A stretch of 64,000 nt of DNA from Ignavibacteriales bacterium. Lineage in GTDB: Bacteria > Bacteroidota > Ignavibacteria > Ignavibacteriales > SURF-24. The notes under the pieces were generated by a model. The model saw nothing but the letters and a program-made list of their open reading frames with translations. It searched no databases and was not told the origin of the DNA. Location of the stretch: NCBI GenBank assembly GCA_026390815.1, contig JAPLFH010000041.1, positions 62,001 through 126,000 on the forward strand, given 5' to 3'. Shown one piece after another: positions 17,666 to 27,548 of this stretch. Position 1 is the first letter of the stretch; the number at the start of each line of letters is the position of its first letter. Made by a program: the position numbers and the translations under genes.

Positions 17666-20218
17666 CTATAACATCTTCATTAAAACAATGGTTATATCAT
17701 CATTCTGTTCTCTTCGCCCACGGAATTTTTCTATTGACAACATAACTTCATTCATAATTTCTTTTACAGGTTTCGCTTTGTTCATTTTTATTACTTCAGC
17801 AAATTCATCCATTCCATAAAGATCGTTATGCTCATTCATCGCTTCGCTAATTCCATCTGAAAAGAAAGTATAAATTTCATTCGGTTGATATTTTAATTCG
17901 ATTTGCTCAAGAGATTCTTCAAATATTATCCCTTCCTCCAAGCCCAATCCAATACCTTTTGATTGATAAATTTTAACCGCTCCATTAATTACCAACAATG
18001 GCGAATGCCCCGCCCGGCAGAATTTAATTGTTTTAGTTTCAGCATCTATTAAAGCAAGGTTAACAGTAATAAACCAATTTCTTTCAATGCTGTCATAAAT
18101 TCTCTTATTAATTTCCACCAAAACTTCTTTTGGTGAAATATTGTTTTGACAGTACAATTGCACCATCGTTTGTAGTTTGCTCATATAAAGGGATGCGGAT
18201 AATCCTTTGCCAGAAACATCACCAACAATTACAAAAAGTTTTGTTGGAGATATTTGAATCAGGTCGTAATAATCTCCGCCAACCTGCATTGCAGGAATCA
18301 TTTTACCGCATAAATCAATCCCGGTAATTTGAGGAATCTGCTTAGGCAGCAATCCTTCCTGAATTTTTCTGGCATTATCCAAATCTCTTTCCATCGTTAA
18401 CTTTTTAGCTTCAGATTCATATAGCCGTGCATTCTCCAGAGACAAACCGGCTTGATTTGCAGCAGCACAAAGTAGTTCCAAATCCTTTCCCGCAAATTGA
18501 GAACCCGATAGTTTTAAACCGAACAACAATAGACCGATCACTTTGGATTTAATAACCATCGGTACAATTGTGTAAATATTTTCCTGGATTAATTGCTCGT
18601 AATTATCCGGAAAAATTTCCCTGAATTGAGATTGCTCAATGTAAGTTCGTCCATTAATTTCCAATTTTTCCTGAATAAAATTTGCAAGCTGATTATTTAA
18701 ATCAGAAATAGTAAGTTCATTTATTGACAAACCAAGATTTCTTCTCAATTCATATTTCAAAGAATTATTTTCTTTAAGCAAAATACCGAAGCGATTAATT
18801 CTAAGTGCGCTAATAAATGTTTCCGTCATAGAATCAAGAATATTTTCCAAACCAACAATGCTAACAACATCATTGCTAAATTTTAGAATAACTCTTTGAT
18901 ATGTAAATTGCTCCGGGTAGAATCTTCGAGTTAAAAGATTTTGAAATTTATCCTTGGTTGATTGAAAGATAAACGCAAATATCACAAACGTGAAAACTGC
19001 TATTGCGCTTTGATAAGGTGTTCCGATTGCTGAACCGATACCTTGTCCCAATCCATAAGTAACTAAATAGTAAATGACTGCTATAGTTGCTGTGGCGGTT
19101 CCATATACAATTGTATTTTTTACAACTACGCTAACATCCATCAATTGATACTTAAAAATTGAGTAACCAAAGGAGATTGGAATTATAGCAACTAAAACAA
19201 TCGGCATAAAGTACTCCGGAGAGTTAAAGATTGTATCTGCAATAATATTTGCAACCATAGTTGAATATATTAAAGCTACAACTCCAAGAGTATATGCAGC
19301 AAGAATTACAATTAAAGGTTTTTTCTCTTCTTTTGTTTTTAATCTATAAAAATTAATGAATAATGAAATCAATCCAATTAAAAGTCCAAGTCCAAGTAAT
19401 ATATTGGTAATTCGTATTACATAGGCATAAAGTAATTGGTCATTCGGAATAAAGACAAAGAACCATCGATATAAATAAGATAAAAGAAACAGAGTAGCGG
19501 ATGAAATTATGAATGCCTTTTTTAGCCATTTCTTTTCAACAATCTTAAATGGTTTGGGAAAACTCCAGAAAAAATATACGATCATAAATGGTAAAGCAAA
19601 CCCTGCCATAGACCAGATAATATCAACTGTAAGAACTATCGGCAGATAGCGTACAATTGGATTATCTCCCCAGGGATTTGTTATAAGAACAATTGACATA
19701 TAAAGAACAAATCCACAACCAATCCGATAAAACAATCTTTGAACTTTACCATCGGGTTTTGCCATAACAACTATAAATCCAACAACCAGCCAAATAAAAC
19801 CGAGTAGTCCAATTCCAAGATTTCCAAAATTTATTAATTTTTTAATATAGACTTTAGTTTCTATGATCTTTCCATTTTTCTTTATAGTATAATTAGCATA
19901 CTCACCTTCTTTATGTTTATTTAAAGTAACCTGAGCGACTAAAGCGTTAGGTAATTTTACATTGTCTATTTTTAAAAGTATATCTCCGTTCCTTACACCA
20001 GCATTCCAGGTTACGCCGTTAACTTTAACACTATTAAAGAAAATCGTAATGCTATCCTTAGCCATTTTTTTTGGAATCCACAAGCATTCATCATTAGAAA
20101 CAACTGTAACAACAAAAACAAAATAAAGATTTGCCAGAGCTACAAAAGCCACAAGCGCAGCTAAAAATATTGTAATGGTTTGCCTGTATTTTAATAATAT
20201 CGTTTTAAGTTTCTTCAT
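17666..20218 (-). CDS. membrane PDZ-GAF-SpoIIE serine phosphatase
   Basis: 850 residues. After a first helix (about 12-36), residues about 45-130 look PDZ-like (VRNGDILLKIDNVKLPN). About seven or eight further helices run to near 425. A GAF domain occupies about 450-605 (FSNDVVSIVGLENILDSM, ENARLYE). A PPM/SpoIIE phosphatase completes it, with metal-binding Asp in QVGGDYYD, GDVSGKG, FSDGISEAMN and QNDDITIV. In partner-switching systems such enzymes dephosphorylate an anti-anti-sigma STAS protein. It is the last gene of a seven-gene minus-strand run, three bases after the stop of the next phosphatase gene. The membrane and PDZ front end suggests an envelope signal; the signal is unknown. Confidence 0.9.
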   Translation of the reverse strand: MKKLKTILLKYRQTITIFLAALVAFVALANLYFVFVVTVVSNDECLWIPKKMAKDSITIFFNSVKVNGVTWNAGVRNGDILLKIDNVKLPNALVAQVTLNKHKEGEYANYTIKKNGKIIETKVYIKKLINFGNLGIGLLGFIWLVVGFIVVMAKPDGKVQRLFYRIGCGFVLYMSIVLITNPWGDNPIVRYLPIVLTVDIIWSMAGFALPFMIVYFFWSFPKPFKIVEKKWLKKAFIISSATLFLLSYLYRWFFVFIPNDQLLYAYVIRITNILLGLGLLIGLISLFINFYRLKTKEEKKPLIVILAAYTLGVVALIYSTMVANIIADTIFNSPEYFMPIVLVAIIPISFGYSIFKYQLMDVSVVVKNTIVYGTATATIAVIYYLVTYGLGQGIGSAIGTPYQSAIAVFTFVIFAFIFQSTKDKFQNLLTRRFYPEQFTYQRVILKFSNDVVSIVGLENILDSMTETFISALRINRFGILLKENNSLKYELRRNLGLSINELTISDLNNQLANFIQEKLEINGRTYIEQSQFREIFPDNYEQLIQENIYTIVPMVIKSKVIGLLLFGLKLSGSQFAGKDLELLCAAANQAGLSLENARLYESEAKKLTMERDLDNARKIQEGLLPKQIPQITGIDLCGKMIPAMQVGGDYYDLIQISPTKLFVIVGDVSGKGLSASLYMSKLQTMVQLYCQNNISPKEVLVEINKRIYDSIERNWFITVNLALIDAETKTIKFCRAGHSPLLVINGAVKIYQSKGIGLGLEEGIIFEESLEQIELKYQPNEIYTFFSDGISEAMNEHNDLYGMDEFAEVIKMNKAKPVKEIMNEVMLSIEKFRGRREQNDDITIVLMKML

Positions 20219-20221
20219 AAG

Positions 20222-21904
20222 TTATTTTACTTTAATGATCATAAGAGTTATATCATCTGACTGTATTGCACCTTCAGTATGTGTTTGAACATCATTCCTG
20301 ATTTCTAAAAGAATTTTTGCGGCTTCTTCCTGATAAATTTGTTTGCTTAATTTTTCCAGGCGTTCATCCGTAAACTCTTCCATCATTTTATTCATTGCTT
20401 CTGTTACACCATCCGTAAAAAGAATTATTGCATCCCCCGATTGCAAACTAATTGTTTCCATTGCATAAGGCTTAAGAGTTTTTAAAATTCCAAGAATCAT
20501 TCCCCCTTTTGTAAATTTTGAAATATTTCCATTTCTAATTAAAAGTGGTGGATTGTGTCCGGCGTTTACATATGTTAAAGTTATAGCTTCATCATTAAGA
20601 ATTCCCCAAAAAAATGTAATAAAATTTTCTCCCATCGTATTTTCAGAAACAAGATCGTTGATCAAGCCGGTTGCATCGCTTAGTTCCATTCCGTGTTTGG
20701 CAATTATTTTTAAAAAAGCCTGCAGGTTTGCCATAAGCAGTGAAGCAGGTACCCCTTTACCGGAAACATCAGCAATTGCAAACAGAATATTATTATCATC
20801 AAGTCTTAGGACATCATAATAATCTCCGCCAACCTGTTTTGATGAAACATTTACAGCCTGTATTTCAAAGTTCTGTAATTTAGGAAGTGATTTGGGAAAA
20901 AGATTTTTCTGAATATTTCGGGCAATCTCAAGATCCTTTTCCATTTTTTGTTTTTCAAGAGTTTCTTTAAATAGACGCGCATTCTCAATCGAAATCATAG
21001 CAAGGCTGCCGATGGAATAAATATATTCTGAATCAGATTCTGAATATTCAATGTTGTTAATTCTTTTTCCAAGTAAAATTAATCCTTTAGTCTCGCGCTG
21101 GATCTGCATTGGAATTAAAAGCTCTACACCAATATTAACTAATTCGCCATATTCTTCTTTCAATTTTTCTTTTCTTAAAGGAGTAATTATTTCGGCTGGA
21201 TTACAATTTTGAAGTATCGCAGAAAGTAACGGTTGTGGGAATTTGGAATCCAGTATTGTCATACCGTTAGGTTCGCAAACAATAACAGCATAGTTAGAAA
21301 TTAATAACTGACCTATAATTGAATAGATAAGAAGTTTTACAACCCGCTGTGTTTCCAGTACACCGCTAAACTCTTTGCTAAGTTCAAACAAGGACGAGAG
21401 CATGGATACTTTTGAATCCAGGCTGCGATTAGCGGTTTTCAGTTTCTCAAAAATTATTGAATTCTCAATTGCTGTTGCGGCAATATTAATAATCAGGTCT
21501 ATAAATTCTTTATCATCAGGTGTGTATTCTTTCTTGCTAAGTTTATCACCAAGAAAAATAATTCCCAAAGTTCCCTGTGATGATTTAATGTGTTGGCAAA
21601 ACTGTAAATTATATTTTTCTTTGAAGTTTGTTAAAACAGGTTTATTGTTTTCAATATCTTCACGATTGATTGAAGGAAATTGTTTAATAACTTCTGCTGT
21701 TAATCCTTTAAATGATTTTACCTTCAACTCACCATAATCATCAAATAAAGCAATTACACCTTTTGTTGTATGAAATTTTCCAAAACAGGTTAGCAAAAGA
21801 TTATTGAGATTGGATTTAAGATCTAAGCTGGAGTTAATAAATTTACCAAAATCTACAAGAGCAGATAAATTTCTTTGTGCACCATCGGTATCAAATAAAC
21901 TCAT
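20222..21904 (-). CDS. cytosolic GAF-GAF-SpoIIE serine phosphatase
   Basis: 560 residues without membrane segments. Two GAF domains (about 20-150 and 185-320; each ends in an AIENSIIFEKL or SIENARLFKETL helix) lead through a linker helix to an RsbU-type phosphatase. Its key motifs are QVGGDYYD, IADVSGKGVPASLL, FTDGVTEAMN and QSDDITLMI. GAF domains usually bind small molecules or redox groups, so this member should sense a cytosolic signal. It starts nine bases after the RsbW-like gene and ends three bases before the membrane phosphatase gene, a tightly packed operon. Expected substrate: the phosphorylated STAS protein encoded at 22351. Confidence 0.9.
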   Translation of the reverse strand: MSLFDTDGAQRNLSALVDFGKFINSSLDLKSNLNNLLLTCFGKFHTTKGVIALFDDYGELKVKSFKGLTAEVIKQFPSINREDIENNKPVLTNFKEKYNLQFCQHIKSSQGTLGIIFLGDKLSKKEYTPDDKEFIDLIINIAATAIENSIIFEKLKTANRSLDSKVSMLSSLFELSKEFSGVLETQRVVKLLIYSIIGQLLISNYAVIVCEPNGMTILDSKFPQPLLSAILQNCNPAEIITPLRKEKLKEEYGELVNIGVELLIPMQIQRETKGLILLGKRINNIEYSESDSEYIYSIGSLAMISIENARLFKETLEKQKMEKDLEIARNIQKNLFPKSLPKLQNFEIQAVNVSSKQVGGDYYDVLRLDDNNILFAIADVSGKGVPASLLMANLQAFLKIIAKHGMELSDATGLINDLVSENTMGENFITFFWGILNDEAITLTYVNAGHNPPLLIRNGNISKFTKGGMILGILKTLKPYAMETISLQSGDAIILFTDGVTEAMNKMMEEFTDERLEKLSKQIYQEEAAKILLEIRNDVQTHTEGAIQSDDITLMIIKVK

Positions 21905-21913
21905 AATACACTT

Positions 21914-22348
21914 TTATGAAAGATATTTTACCAGAACAACTTGATTTTTATTACCTGTGTTCGGATTATACCGGACTTCATCCATCAGCTTCTTCATCAG
22001 GTAAATTCCTAATCCGCCAACTTTATGCTGCTGATAATATTTTTTTATATCTGGAACGGGAATTATGCTGGGATTGAAATCTAAACCATAATCAGTTATA
22101 GAAACAATCATTTTATTTTCAGCAACTTTAATATTAATAAGAATATCACCTTCAGGTGAGAATTTATAAGCATGTTTAATGATGTTTGTACAGGCTTCAT
22201 CAACAGCTAAAGCAATTTTATCAACAACCTCTTCAGTAAAACCGGTTTGAGATGCAATTGACTTTGTAAAGTCTCTAATCATTCCAAGGTTATCTGTTGT
22301 GCTTTTAACCTTAATTTCTTTTTCAATTGATTTAATATTGTTATTCAA
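21914..22348 (-). CDS. RsbW-like anti-sigma serine kinase
   Basis: 144 residues of a GHKL-type kinase: N-box ALAVDEACTNIIKHAYKF, G1 box DYGLDFNP and G2 box GGLGIYLMKKLMDEV. This is the RsbW/SpoIIAB class. Known members phosphorylate a STAS partner on Ser/Thr and, in Gram-positives, bind a sigma-B-type factor. The gene sits two bases after its probable STAS substrate gene. No sigma-B-type factor is encoded in the window; the only sigma gene nearby is an ECF sigma three genes upstream, so the target it sequesters is open. Confidence 0.9.
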   Translation of the reverse strand: MNNNIKSIEKEIKVKSTTDNLGMIRDFTKSIASQTGFTEEVVDKIALAVDEACTNIIKHAYKFSPEGDILINIKVAENKMIVSITDYGLDFNPSIIPVPDIKKYYQQHKVGGLGIYLMKKLMDEVRYNPNTGNKNQVVLVKYLS

Positions 22349-22350
22349 GA

Positions 22351-22704
22351 CTAACTCTTCTCGCTGAACTTTTGAACTGCTTCCTTTTCGTCGTTATAAA
22401 ATTCATAAAGTAATGGAAAACCAAGCAGATCAAAGATGTTATAAACTTTTGGTGTCATATTGGTAAATTTAATATCGCCTTTATTATCCCGCATTGTTTC
22501 TACGTAAGCCATAAAAACACCTAAACCAGCGCTGCTTATATAATTTAAACTTTCAAAATTTACAACTACTCTGTACTTCTGGCTATCAATTAGTTTAGTG
22601 AATATATTCTCCAGCTCTGGTGCTGTGTGTGCATCAAGATAGCCTTGTAAGTTGATTATACTTACCTGATCATCTTCGTGCATTTGCACATTAAAGTCTG
22701 CCAT
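22351..22704 (-). CDS. STAS anti-anti-sigma factor (SpoIIAA/RsbV-like)
   Basis: 117 residues: ISIINLQGYLDAHTAPELENI followed by NFESLNYISSAGLGVFMAYV, where the Ser in the SSAG motif is the expected phosphorylation site, and IFDLLGFPLLYEF at the end. Members cycle between phosphorylated (by RsbW) and dephosphorylated (by SpoIIE phosphatases) forms and release the kinase's target. Its ATG shares one base with the stop codon of the membrane phosphatase gene upstream, which argues for translational coupling. Confidence 0.93.
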   Translation of the reverse strand: MADFNVQMHEDDQVSIINLQGYLDAHTAPELENIFTKLIDSQKYRVVVNFESLNYISSAGLGVFMAYVETMRDNKGDIKFTNMTPKVYNIFDLLGFPLLYEFYNDEKEAVQKFSEKS

Positions 22705-24776
22705 TAAATCTCTCCCGAGTTTTTATTTTTTAATTTCCATTTGAAAATAACTAAAGTAATATCATCATGCTGCGGACTTCCTTGCGAAAATGTAGTTACT
22801 TCCCTCATAATCTGATTTGCAAGTTCATCCAAACTTACTTTACCATTAGTTAGAATTATTTTTTCAAAACGTTCATCACCAAAATCCTCCAGAGATGCAT
22901 TCTTGGATTCTGTAATACCGTCTGTGAACAATACTAATATATCATTTTCTTTTAATTTAATCTCAACTTCTTCAATTGTATTAACAAAATTTGAAGTGTG
23001 GTCGAGCCCTAAACCCATCCCACCCGGTTTATAATGTACAATTTTACTATCCCGCGATAAAAGTAACGGCATATGACCAGCACGGGCAAAAAACATTTTG
23101 GAATTTATTAAATCAAAAACACCATAGATTACAGTAATAAAACTTTTTTTCTCAAGGCTAAATCTTAAAATTTCATTTGCTTTAATTAAAACTTCGCGCG
23201 GGCTTTCTATCAGTTTAGAAAGTGATTCAAAAATTCCTTTAATCTCTGCCATAATAAATGCGGCAGTAATTCCTTTACCGGATACATCTGCAATAACAAA
23301 TCCTAATTTATTATCCGGTAGATGAAAGAAATCATAATAGTCACCACCGACTTCAAAAGCCGGAATAAATACGGCGGAAATATCCAGGCAATCAATTTGC
23401 GGAGTTTTATCAGGAAGAATTTTATACTGAATTTCCCTTGCAACATCAAGTTCCTTTTCCAAGCGTTCTTTTTCTAATGATTCTTCTAACAATCTTGAGT
23501 TCTCAATAGCCAGGGCAGCATATTCTGCAAATGCTCCAATCGATTTCTGGTCATCCTCATCAAACTGATCTTCCGATTTTCTGGCAGCAATAAGGTAACC
23601 ATCAATTTTATTATGAACTTTTAAGGGAGCAATTGCTAAACATTTAATTGTCGCATTATTATCCGCGGTTTCTTCACCTCTTAAATTGCTTAGTCTAACC
23701 GTTTTAACATTTTTTATATTTCTTAAATCATAGTTTGAGGAAAGCTTGCTTACTATTTTATCCGCTTCAACATAACCTATATTTTTTACAGCGCTAACTG
23801 TTAACACTCCTTCTGTTTCTGATACCAACCAGGCTGAGTTTGAATTGCACACTTGAATTGTTATATCAGTTACAGTATCAGCTAATTCCTTAAAATCAAA
23901 AACCTGGGTAATTAATTTGCTAAGATTTATTAATGATGATGCTTCCTGAGCTTTTCTATCGAATGCTGACGCTGTTGGGAGGTGGAACAAGGTTGTAAAG
24001 AAAATTATTCCAAAGAAGATGGTTCCATAAATCATTAAAAGAATTGTAAACTGATGAAGTGATGGCGAAAACTCCAATAATAATTGATTTGAAACATTGC
24101 TGGAAGATGCGAGCGCAATATTAACTCCGAAAAGAATTGAAAGTACAGTTGAAATTATTAATAAATAAATTTTCTCCTTCTTAGTAAGGAAAGCAATCCA
24201 TGGAATTCGGATAGAGTTAATTGATATAAGAAGAATTGTAACTACCATTAGCGCAGGTTGGATATAATCCATGTCTTTTTTTAGAAGAGCAATATTATTA
24301 GAAAGCGAAGTAGCTAATAAAAAAATTGCAAGTGTGTTAAAATAAAATTTTGGACTTTTCTTTTGACGAAGGAAAAACAAAGTTTTAAATACTGAGTATA
24401 TATATGCCAGCGCAGCAATAAATATGAATGAATAAAATGTTGATCCGATAGAGAACATAAAATTTTCGCGGGTCAACCCATCAAAAATTCCCGAAAGAAC
24501 CGGAGCGAGGACGGACAGCACAAAAAATATTACTGCATTCAGGATTCCTGCATTTAGTATTATAGAAAGCGGCGTGTACTTTTTTGTGTTAATAAATTCA
24601 AGCGAATAAATTGATACAAAATAGAAAGTTAAAATAACAAGCGCTTCATTTGGAATTACCCAAAGTACTGAGTTACTATATGGAAAAATTAGTTTGAATA
24701 AAAAAAGTACGACAGAAAGTACCAGAGCATTTTCCAGCTTGTAGGTTCTATCGAATTGGAAGAGTTTAAAATTCAT
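22704..24776 (-). CDS. membrane GAF-SpoIIE serine phosphatase
   Basis: 690 residues. The N-terminal third holds about eight helices (for example ALVLSVVLFLFKLIFPYS and TFYSFIFIAALAYIYSVF), with no obvious extracytoplasmic domain. A GAF domain follows at about 285-425 (INLSKLITQVFDFKELADTV, AALAIENSRLLEE), then an RsbU-type phosphatase with VGGDYYDFFHL, IADVSGKGITAAFI, LFTDGITESKN and QHDDITLVIF. Its membrane block has no PDZ domain, unlike the 850-residue member. It overlaps the STAS gene by one base and begins 38 bases after the unknown 428-residue protein, in the same minus-strand run. Confidence 0.9.
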   Translation of the reverse strand: MNFKLFQFDRTYKLENALVLSVVLFLFKLIFPYSNSVLWVIPNEALVILTFYFVSIYSLEFINTKKYTPLSIILNAGILNAVIFFVLSVLAPVLSGIFDGLTRENFMFSIGSTFYSFIFIAALAYIYSVFKTLFFLRQKKSPKFYFNTLAIFLLATSLSNNIALLKKDMDYIQPALMVVTILLISINSIRIPWIAFLTKKEKIYLLIISTVLSILFGVNIALASSSNVSNQLLLEFSPSLHQFTILLMIYGTIFFGIIFFTTLFHLPTASAFDRKAQEASSLINLSKLITQVFDFKELADTVTDITIQVCNSNSAWLVSETEGVLTVSAVKNIGYVEADKIVSKLSSNYDLRNIKNVKTVRLSNLRGEETADNNATIKCLAIAPLKVHNKIDGYLIAARKSEDQFDEDDQKSIGAFAEYAALAIENSRLLEESLEKERLEKELDVAREIQYKILPDKTPQIDCLDISAVFIPAFEVGGDYYDFFHLPDNKLGFVIADVSGKGITAAFIMAEIKGIFESLSKLIESPREVLIKANEILRFSLEKKSFITVIYGVFDLINSKMFFARAGHMPLLLSRDSKIVHYKPGGMGLGLDHTSNFVNTIEEVEIKLKENDILVLFTDGITESKNASLEDFGDERFEKIILTNGKVSLDELANQIMREVTTFSQGSPQHDDITLVIFKWKLKNKNSGEI

Positions 24777-24814
24777 TAATACTTTAATTTTTGTTTTAGA
24801 TTATGCAGGTAAAT

Positions 24815-26101
24815 TTAATTCACTTTATTTTGCTTTTTCGCTTGTTTCAATTCTTTTTTCAATTGCTCCATTTGTTTCTTAAATGCTTTTTTATCAAAAT
24901 ATTTAGATGAAGAATCCCCCACTTCTGCATGAATTGAATTAACAATTGAATCTATTACTTCTGCTGGAATATTGACATTTTTTAATGCTTCCAGCCCAAT
25001 GGACATGCTTTGTTGAACAATTTCATTCAAATCTGGTAAATCAATATTCAATTCAAAATCCTGAGGTACTTCAGGTGGATTCACTTCAGTAGACGATTCT
25101 GGTTCTGTTATCCTCATATTTTTTGTATGCATTTTGAAGTTAAGTTTTTTTAATTCATTTGTAACTTCATTTAAATCAGCAATAGCCAAGGGTAAATCCG
25201 GAATTTTAATTTCCGGTATTTCTACATTTGGAACTTGAATTCTGCAAAAATTAGGATCGATTTGCATTGTAAAGTTTTGTTTGTTTTTTTCGTTCTGTAA
25301 TTTCATCATTTCTTTTTGGAAAGCGATGCGGACTTTAAAGTCATCCTTCATATCTTTCAATGCATTCTTCTTGTCTGCAATTTCTCTTTTTATATTTTCC
25401 TCATCCATTTTATAGACTGAACTGAATATGGAATCCGGCGTAACGAAAAAATAATTGCTATCCCGTGCATCCCTGGCTTCGGAAACAAATTTGTTTAATC
25501 CAGGATTGTTATAAAAGTTATGGTATAATGGAACTAACTGATTGAATTTTGCACTGTTTGCTTGTGAAGCAAACATAAAAATATCTGCACGGATTGCCTT
25601 GTTGAGATTCCAGAGATTAGAATTAATCGCAATTGTATTCTTATCATTTATTAATACTTGTTTCCTGATTTCGTCCTGGTAAGATTCAAGTAATGAATCC
25701 AATTTTTGCTTTTGTACATTATTAAATTCGAATGATTTTACAAATTGGTTAAGATTATTCTTTCGTTCTCCATCGGAATTCTTAACAAATTCAAAATATT
25801 TATTGCCTTCGGATTCATCCCCAAGTTTTAAATATTGTTTATTGTTTTTATCAAGTGGCAATTCATTATTCATTGCAAAGTTAAAAACGTCGTCGTTCGT
25901 AATTGAAGTTCCAACAAAAAGAGGTTTTAGGTTTTGAGAATAGAATTCAACTAAATTATGCTTCTGTTCATCAACAATTTGACTGATATTTTTATTTTTG
26001 AAAAAGAATATTAAGGCAATGGTTAAAATGATTAACCCAGCAACAGGAACCCATTGCTTTGCACTTAGGTTCCATCCTGATTTTGTTTTTTCATTTCCCA
26101 T
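24815..26101 (-). CDS. membrane-anchored coiled-coil protein of unknown function
   Basis: 428 residues. One helix (about 17-34, WVPVAGLIILTIALIFFF) anchors a large domain outside the cytosol or, with opposite topology, inside it. There is an alpha-helical, charged middle (about 235-290) and a proline-spaced segment IPEIKIPDLPLAIADL near 305. A Lys/Gln-rich C-terminal helix reads QMEQLKKELKQAKKQNK. I recognise no catalytic or zinc motif. It sits between an ECF sigma gene and the partner-switching genes. That is where an anti-sigma factor or a stress sensor would be expected, but neither the ZAS motif nor another anti-sigma signature is visible. Confidence 0.72.
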   Translation of the reverse strand: MGNEKTKSGWNLSAKQWVPVAGLIILTIALIFFFKNKNISQIVDEQKHNLVEFYSQNLKPLFVGTSITNDDVFNFAMNNELPLDKNNKQYLKLGDESEGNKYFEFVKNSDGERKNNLNQFVKSFEFNNVQKQKLDSLLESYQDEIRKQVLINDKNTIAINSNLWNLNKAIRADIFMFASQANSAKFNQLVPLYHNFYNNPGLNKFVSEARDARDSNYFFVTPDSIFSSVYKMDEENIKREIADKKNALKDMKDDFKVRIAFQKEMMKLQNEKNKQNFTMQIDPNFCRIQVPNVEIPEIKIPDLPLAIADLNEVTNELKKLNFKMHTKNMRITEPESSTEVNPPEVPQDFELNIDLPDLNEIVQQSMSIGLEALKNVNIPAEVIDSIVNSIHAEVGDSSSKYFDKKAFKKQMEQLKKELKQAKKQNKVN

Positions 26102-26200
26102 TATTTACCCTTTCAGTTTCATTACATTCTATTAAACAACTCCCGAACACTTACAAACACAGATAGGAGAGGCACTTCGTTTTGCTAAATTATTAAATCA

Positions 26201-26336
26201 TTAAGTCACCTTACGCAGCATTTTGAACTCTACCCCAAATCCCCTTCTCTTTGAAAGAGAAGGGGACTAAGGAGATGAGTTTTTTGGCTCAAATATCTAA
26301 ACGATGCGTAACGTGACTCATTAACACTAAAGTGTT
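26201..26336. repeat. MITE-like element with inverted termini and central palindrome
   Basis: AGTCACCTTACGCA (26204-26217) and TGCGTAACGTGACT (26305-26318) are inverted copies with one mismatch. Between them lies a perfect palindrome, CCCCTTCTCTTT-G-AAAGAGAAGGGG (26241-26265). Just outside is AACACT-AA-AGTGTT (26323-26336). TTAA or ATTAA flanks both termini. No protein is encoded. It lies between the ECF sigma gene and the next gene of the run, so it may also affect readthrough. Confidence 0.65.
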
Positions 26337-26373
26337 AGCAGGAGGTGCAAAGAACATTTTTTGGAATTAAAGT

Positions 26374-26973
26374 TTAAGTAAACAATTCCCCTTCAAATGG
26401 TTGAAGCAGAATTTTAATTGTTTCTCTTGCTCTAAATATCCTGGACTTAATTGTTCCTACTTCACAAAGAAGTTGATCTGCAATTTCTTTATAACTTAAT
26501 CCATCCATTTCACGCATAACCAGGGGAATTCTAAGTTTTTCCGGTAACTTTTCAATTGCCGCCTGAACTACTTCTTTAATATCAACAGTATCGCTTGGTT
26601 TACTATAAACGCCATAATCTTCATCAGAATCTTTTATAGGAACAAAAATGCTTCTTATTTTTATTTTACGCAGATGATCTTTGCACTTATTAACTGTAAT
26701 TCTATACAGCCAGGTTGTAAACTGAGATTCAAAACGAAAAAGACTCATCTTACTAAAAACGCTAATAAAAACTTCCTGAGAAATATCATCAACAAGTTCT
26801 CGGTTACCAACAGTTAAAAAAACCAGGTTTCTAACTTTATCTTTATGTTTCATAACTAAAGTTCTAAACGTAGTTTCATCACCATCCATAAACCGTCTTA
26901 TCAAATCAAAATCTTCATCAGTACTTGGTGATTGTTGAGGAATTATTTCGTTTCCGTTTTTATTTATAACCAT
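26374..26973 (-). CDS. ECF-family RNA polymerase sigma factor
   Basis: 199 residues. Region 2 (FDLIRRFMDGDETTFRTLV ... DDISQEVFISVFSKM, FTTWLYRITVNKC) and region 4 (LPEKLRIPLVMREMDGLSY and KEIADQLL..GTIKSRIFRARE) are both complete, with no extra C-terminal domain. It heads the minus-strand run that continues with the unknown coiled-coil protein and the partner-switching genes, though a 270-base gap with a repeat element lies between. A STAS gene is divergent upstream (27210), with a 236-base shared regulatory region. No dedicated anti-sigma gene is recognisable beside it. Confidence 0.92.
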   Translation of the reverse strand: MVINKNGNEIIPQQSPSTDEDFDLIRRFMDGDETTFRTLVMKHKDKVRNLVFLTVGNRELVDDISQEVFISVFSKMSLFRFESQFTTWLYRITVNKCKDHLRKIKIRSIFVPIKDSDEDYGVYSKPSDTVDIKEVVQAAIEKLPEKLRIPLVMREMDGLSYKEIADQLLCEVGTIKSRIFRARETIKILLQPFEGELFT

Positions 26974-27209
26974 TTGATTAGACGATAAATTGGATTCTTA
27001 GTTCCGTTTATTAAATAGATTGTAGAATTTTTAACCGGATACTGGACAATTAGGTCATTTCTAATATTTTATTGGAATAAAAACATTAAAACTGCTACCG
27101 AATTAAAAATATATTTTAACCACTCATAAATTAACAATAAATTCTTTTAATTTGCTTGCAAAAAATGACTCATCTAATTAAATTGCAGTAGAAAAATAAA
27201 GGAGCATTC

Positions 27210-27548
27210 ATGAAAGTTAAAACTGAAGAGCACTACAATGCTGTTGTAATTGAGCTTAAAGGCAACGTAATGGGAGGCCCAGAAGCTACTGAGCTTAATG
27301 AGTTATTGCACAAACTTATTGATGACAACAAAAAAAATCTTATTATCGACCTGGCAGAAGTAAAATTTATGAACAGCTCTGGATTAGGTATGTTAATCAG
27401 CGCTTTCACAACAATGAAGAGCGGCGGCGGTAATCTAAAATTAGCAAACGCTACTGATAAGATTCAAAGCCTTCTTTTAATTACAAAGCTTGTAACAATT
27501 TTTGAAAACTTTGATTCTGTTGAACAGGCTGTTAAAAGTTACGCTTAA
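27210..27548 (+). CDS. second STAS anti-anti-sigma factor
   Basis: 112 residues: YNAVVIELKGNVMGGPEATEL, then LIIDLAEVKFMNSSGLGMLISAF with the SSG phosphorylation-site serine, then TKLVTIFENFDSVEQAV. It is a separate SpoIIAA/RsbV-type protein, divergent from the ECF sigma gene and so outside the main run, but close enough to belong to the same network. AAGGAG lies just upstream, and a strong terminator follows, so it is transcribed alone. Confidence 0.93.
   Translation: MKVKTEEHYNAVVIELKGNVMGGPEATELNELLHKLIDDNKKNLIIDLAEVKFMNSSGLGMLISAFTTMKSGGGNLKLANATDKIQSLLLITKLVTIFENFDSVEQAVKSYA

Follow-up and report, generated by a model that had tools for sequence, protein, structure and literature searches.

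Proposed takeover of an autoregulated ECF sigma factor by an RsbW-type partner-switching module in Ignavibacteriales

Background

The Bacillus RsbU/V/W-sigma-B and SpoIIE/AA/AB-sigma-F systems consist of a kinase, a STAS protein with its serine and SpoIIE phosphatases with sensory fronts, and their sigma operons are autoregulated. The locus described here shares all of these features. It differs from the Bacillus systems in that its sigma factor is of the ECF type, that three phosphatases are encoded in the operon and that the operon carries an apparent relic of a membrane anti-sigma factor. That relic, here called protein U, connects the locus with a second group of systems, the pairs RseA-sigmaE, RsiW-sigmaW and MucA-AlgU. 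In sister families, the orthologs of U resemble the anti-sigma members of these pairs: they have an anti-sigma domain, one transmembrane helix and a further domain, and are encoded after an autoregulated ECF gene. In contrast to these pairs, no member of the clade to which the window belongs has the sigma-binding domain, and U itself has sometimes been deleted.

PhyR, a response regulator, has a sigma-like domain, and to our knowledge the PhyR-NepR-EcfG core includes neither an RsbW kinase nor a SpoIIE phosphatase. This alphaproteobacterial system, which works with PhyR as the anti-sigma antagonist and with NepR (PMC4598750, PMC4814048), carries out partner switching on an ECF-type factor, as is proposed here for the window. 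In Bordetella, the partner switch BtrU/V/W is found near an ECF factor, BtrS, as in the window; BtrA is the anti-sigma factor of BtrS, and BtrW does not act as a negative regulator (PMC7498569). RsbW-type kinases with targets other than sigma-B include that of Chlamydia, which acts on the housekeeping sigma66 (PMC8256260), and Slr1861/Ssr1600 of Synechocystis, where the target is SigC (PMC12329169); neither target is an ECF factor. STAS outputs from partner switches are reported in Vibrio and Nostoc (PMC8256260, PMC6495340), and a two-hybrid analysis of Rhodobacter RbaW found no sigma partner (PMC3999984). In the open-licence literature we found no description of an ECF factor as the target of an RsbW-type kinase, a novelty that is provisional, and no paper on sigma or anti-sigma factors of Ignavibacteria.

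Results

The window, that is, the whole stretch of 64,000 nucleotides that was analysed, is part of a 4.52-Mb genome. Open reading frames together with Pfam and NCBIfam matches confirm the eight genes, with their coordinates and domains, that an earlier note had described from the sequence alone (Table 1).

Table 1. Features of the partner-switching locus, in window coordinates
Feature	Position	Strand	Evidence
Membrane SpoIIE phosphatase, PDZ-like N-terminal region (input phosphatase 3)	17666..20218	-	SpoIIE 134.7 bits; PDZ_6 19.8 bits (below cut-off)
Cytosolic SpoIIE phosphatase, GAF-like N-terminal region (input phosphatase 2)	20222..21904	-	SpoIIE 152.2 bits
RsbW/SpoIIAB-like serine kinase, proposed ECF anti-sigma	21914..22348	-	HATPase_c_2 105 bits
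STAS antagonist, RsbV-like (STAS1)	22351..22704	-	TIGR00377 71 bits, over cut-off
Membrane SpoIIE phosphatase, GAF-like region (input phosphatase 1)	22704..24776	-	SpoIIE 149.0 bits
Protein U, apparent anti-sigma-factor remnant	24815..26101	-	Orthologs with N-terminal anti-sigma domain; AlphaFold model
Insertion between ECF and U	26102..26373	-	Non-coding; contains a palindrome (about 25 bp) and no anti-sigma domain
ECF sigma factor	26374..26973	-	ECF sigma regions 2 and 4; ortholog adjoins U across the class
ECF-type promoter GGAAC-N16-CGTCTAA	26978..27005	-	4 nt before ECF start codon
Second STAS protein (STAS2), divergent, between ECF and purA	27210..27548	+	STAS domain; conserved FMNSSGLGMLI

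The minus-strand run reads ECF, U, membrane SpoIIE phosphatase, STAS, kinase, GAF phosphatase and PDZ/membrane phosphatase, and purA, like STAS2, is divergent from it. The last six genes are separated by 38, -1, 2, 9 and 3 bp, in agreement with the claim that these gaps are all under 40 bases. The three phosphatases each have a full-length SpoIIE domain in which the GGDYYD, DVSGKG and DD motifs are legible, and several transmembrane segments are predicted in input phosphatase 3. Their GAF and PDZ matches fall below the Pfam cut-offs, yet are consistent. The three enzymes may, as suggested earlier, integrate envelope, membrane and cytosolic signals. The kinase is of the GHKL type, with a conserved N-box (LAVDEActNiIKHAY) and GGLG motif; its best NCBIfam match is RsbW, at 88.7 bits and thus under the equivalog cut-off of 145. 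The two STAS proteins score 58 and 56 bits with the Pfam STAS domain, and the region of the phospho-acceptor serine is kept in both (YISSAGLG in STAS1 and FMNSSGLG in STAS2, about 40 orthologs).

A comparison of gene order in relatives, which had been proposed as a check, shows the block kept in practically every one of 54 relatives belonging to the same order, so that the arrangement is not due to chance. STAS2 is syntenic in nearly all of them. Orthologs of input phosphatase 2 were found in 147 of the 164 genomes of the order (E<=1e-100), several of the misses being contig ends, and orthologs of U in 144 of the 164.

Protein U of the window has no Pfam or NCBIfam match. It consists of a short N-terminal stub, one transmembrane helix (residues about 11-36), a folded domain (about 39-250) and a disordered tail. 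A heavy-metal sensor fold of the CnrX/Spy kind was considered for U on sequence grounds, and its AlphaFold model (mean pLDDT 69.6) has no meaningful PDB match. Comparison of families is more informative: the window's own family (f1), Ignavibacteriaceae (f2) and Melioribacteraceae (f3; Stygiobacter, Melioribacter). In Ignavibacteriaceae, U has about 75 additional amino acids before the transmembrane helix, with the consensus ELLSAYxDGELSxxE. A profile of this region matches RsiW (E 0.0049) and then RseA (E 0.21) best among PDB chains, and in Pfam it reaches zf-HC2 (locus L092, 22.3 bits against a cut-off of 22.2). Its AlphaFold model consists of four helices, and MucA (Z 7.5), RsiW (7.2), RslA (6.8) and RseA (5.4) are among its eight best structural matches, every one of them an anti-sigma domain; Foldseek gives the same ranking with weak E-values. 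As these four lines of evidence agree, this N-terminal region of U in Ignavibacteriaceae can be regarded as an anti-sigma domain.

An anti-sigma-like N-terminal region before the transmembrane helix, in a U that adjoins the ECF gene, is also present at 19 of 20 outgroup loci from other families of the same class (L252 has diverged), four of which are matched by the domain profile itself. The domain is absent from U in all members of the window's family and of Melioribacteraceae. These two families form one clade with support 100 in a concatenated tree, and a single loss of the domain is therefore sufficient. In the window, U still adjoins the ECF gene behind a promoter of the GGAAC-N16/17-CGTC form, as expected of an autoregulated RseA/RsiW-type pair; the cytosolic anti-sigma domain that such a pair has before the transmembrane helix is lacking here and throughout the clade. 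Judged from its orthologs, U is thus what remains of the transmembrane anti-sigma factor that belonged to the ECF factor. The anchored protein that the earlier note had called unknown can now be assigned. An anti-sigma factor dedicated to the ECF factor, which the earlier note had named as evidence against its link to the switch, is present in Ignavibacteriaceae and in nearly all outgroup loci examined; the lineage that leads to the window has lost its domain.

Most domain-less genomes keep U directly after the ECF gene, with conserved motifs in the transmembrane and folded parts and a poorly conserved stub of about 10-20 amino acids. In 12 Melioribacteraceae genomes U is gone entirely, and the ECF gene there abuts the membrane phosphatase gene. 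U was deleted at least twice (in G105 and in a clade of 11), with the ECF factor and the switch kept; the count of changes becomes three with G104, which was left out because its contig ends there. A search with the domain profile found no relocated anti-sigma domain in the window, at the loci of 30 domain-less relatives or at five U-less loci, save at L306. There, in the U-less genome G155, a 65-aa open reading frame (L306:18473-18670), about 5 kb from the ECF gene, gives a weak match (E 0.0012).

The ECF and U genes of the window are 272 bp apart. In other relatives without the anti-sigma domain the two genes usually lie a few bases apart (median 7), which identifies the 272 bp as an insertion. 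A hidden anti-sigma gene was looked for in it and rejected: no open reading frame of more than 22 aa lies within, and no domain matches. The insertion includes a palindromic stretch of some 25 bp (26241-26265, core CCCTTCTCTTTCAAAGAGAAGGG), present in a single copy in the window, which could loosen the coupling of ECF and U in this genome.

Just before the ECF start, 52 of 55 loci have GGAAC (49 loci) or GAAAC (3 loci), a spacer of 16-17 nt and CGTC, and GGAAC-N-CGTCTA[AT] precedes most outgroup ECF genes. In five U-less Melioribacteraceae loci (L258, L260, L263, L265 and L266), the -35 element has apparently changed from GGAAC to (A/C)AAAC or a related sequence, with CGTC kept. The spacing of 4 nt between promoter and ATG (26974-27005, minus strand) is kept in most Ignavibacteriales relatives and is variable in outgroups. 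A promoter ending so close to the start codon, at a conserved distance, suggests that the ECF transcript is leaderless.

The window's genome has the strict motif GGAAC-N16-CGTCTAA a single time, at the ECF gene, and eight relatives have it one to three times each. A wide regulon was considered and rejected, the counts of a relaxed motif being no higher than those of a reversed control. However, each of the five genomes that represent the window's family has a looser copy upstream of a gene for a membrane SpoIIE phosphatase; these genes belong to one subfamily in two genomes and to a second in three. The promoter was not seen before the orthologous genes examined in Melioribacteraceae and Ignavibacteriaceae, and it may therefore be particular to the window's family. 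Its presence links the ECF factor to the class of enzyme that would release it. At another locus (L340, G113:C276), a SpoIIE match with a GntR-like N-terminus has an ECF-type motif 62 nt upstream, which may be a chance occurrence.

No RsbU/V/W switch genes were found within the regions examined around 20 outgroup ECF loci. In Ignavibacteriaceae the module is a unit by itself: U overlaps the ECF gene by 4 bp (median), and the gap from U to the module is 124-374 bp at 19 of 21 loci (about 200 bp), enough to hold a second promoter. This gap has a median of 28 bp in the domain-less clade, a difference from Ignavibacteriaceae with p 1e-8 if kinship is ignored. Moreover, the two units can be found apart in Ignavibacteriaceae: G003 and G047 have ECF-U without the module at that locus, and G064, G066 and G068 have the module without ECF-U. 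In G064, a 54-aa remnant of the ECF gene persists at the locus (L294:14585-14749, flipped orientation) and the switch is retained. No such separation was found in about 44 loci of the domain-less clade (Fisher p about 0.006, with genomes taken as independent). The single operon, the lack of separation in this clade and the shared promoter signals support the view that the ECF factor belongs with the switch. On the other hand, the module coexists with an intact anti-sigma factor in Ignavibacteriaceae and can outlive the ECF factor there, which implies another target in the past and perhaps still today.

As the earlier note had stated for this locus, a sigma-B-type partner is lacking; this applies to the entire genome of the window, in which no sigma-B/F/G-type factor exceeds the curated SigBFG cut-off, a difference from RsbU/V/W-sigma-B systems. 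The genome encodes two closely similar RpoD-like sigma factors, L022 (C56, 286 aa) and L023 (C43, 284 aa), which are matched best by RpoD/RpoS models.

Discussion

Comparative sequence data document an evolutionary series of domain loss, operon fusion, promoter conservation and non-separation. The reading that we favour, and consider fairly probable, is that the restraint on the autoregulated ECF factor has passed from a membrane anti-sigma factor to an RsbW-type kinase. The ancestral state throughout the class would have been an ECF factor paired with U, a transmembrane anti-sigma factor like RseA or RsiW, and driving its own promoter. In Ignavibacteriales, a module of phosphatase, STAS, kinase and two further phosphatases would have come to lie downstream of ECF-U. 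U would then have lost its sigma-binding domain in the common ancestor of Melioribacteraceae and the window's family, where the module would also have become close-packed with the ECF operon. The earlier note had left the target of the kinase open, and evolutionary and promoter evidence now points to the ECF factor.

As to the present state, we infer the kinase-ECF contact, the phosphorylation cycle, the direction of control and the signals as follows. In the off state the RsbW-like kinase would hold the ECF factor and keep STAS phosphorylated. Signals acting through the SpoIIE phosphatases would lead to dephosphorylated STAS, which would capture the kinase. Once freed, the ECF factor would transcribe its own operon, and in the window's family also one more gene for a SpoIIE phosphatase, which would amount to positive feedback. 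The kinase would be the most economical restraint, since a self-driving ECF factor needs one and the kinase is the sole recognisable protein of an anti-sigma family in the domain-less operon.

If this is true, control of a sigma factor can pass between inhibitor classes without loss of the response, and closely related species offer each stage of the takeover for testing. The module would also be a candidate core stress switch for the little-studied Ignavibacteriales, present in most of their genomes.

The kinase could instead have no contact with the ECF factor. The switch would then act on an RpoD-type factor or, through STAS, on a non-sigma output, and the operon would reflect mere co-expression; the ECF factor, devoid of an anti-sigma, would be governed by transcription only or by U in another way. 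We regard this as unlikely, although it deserves serious consideration. The module in G064, G066 and G068 must have had a role independent of the ECF factor in the past, RsbW homologs with other targets are known (PMC8256260, PMC12329169, PMC6495340), and the two RpoD-like factors are available as alternative targets. However, all dissociations are found where U has its anti-sigma domain and none in the domain-less clade, an ECF factor that activates itself should lock on if nothing antagonises it, and the ECF-type promoter found upstream of a SpoIIE gene in five of five family genomes ties the ECF factor to this signalling class.

It is improbable, in our opinion, that U still restrains the ECF factor through its cytosolic stub or a non-canonical contact, with the switch as a second layer, as perhaps in Ignavibacteriaceae. 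The retention of U next to the ECF gene in most domain-less genomes, and its conserved motifs, would fit such a role; the shortness and poor conservation of the stub, the faster evolution of U after domain loss and its repeated deletion with ECF and switch kept argue against it. That the anti-sigma domain was relocated to a separate gene rather than lost appears very improbable, given that anti-sigma genes usually adjoin their sigma gene and that the profile search of the window and of the loci of its domain-less and U-less relatives gave nothing beyond the weak match at L306.

Evolutionary rates and substitutions also bear on the proposed takeover by the kinase. Relative to PurA, evolution in the domain-less clade is slower for STAS1 (0.73), STAS2 (0.68), the membrane phosphatase (0.74) and the ECF factor (0.80), and faster for U (1.23); the ratio for the kinase is 0.83, with an interval (0.68-1.07) that includes 1. 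These shifts are weakly supportive of the takeover. A new kinase-ECF interface might have left more clade-specific substitutions than the single one found, Q to K at position 162 of the ECF factor; the kinase has none. This counts against the takeover.

Two further sets of switch genes are present in the window's own genome. A second STAS-kinase-(response regulator-SpoIIE) cluster lies near a sensor histidine kinase (L117:9599-11552, C59), and a lone RsbW-like kinase is found elsewhere (L116:9839-10309, C7).
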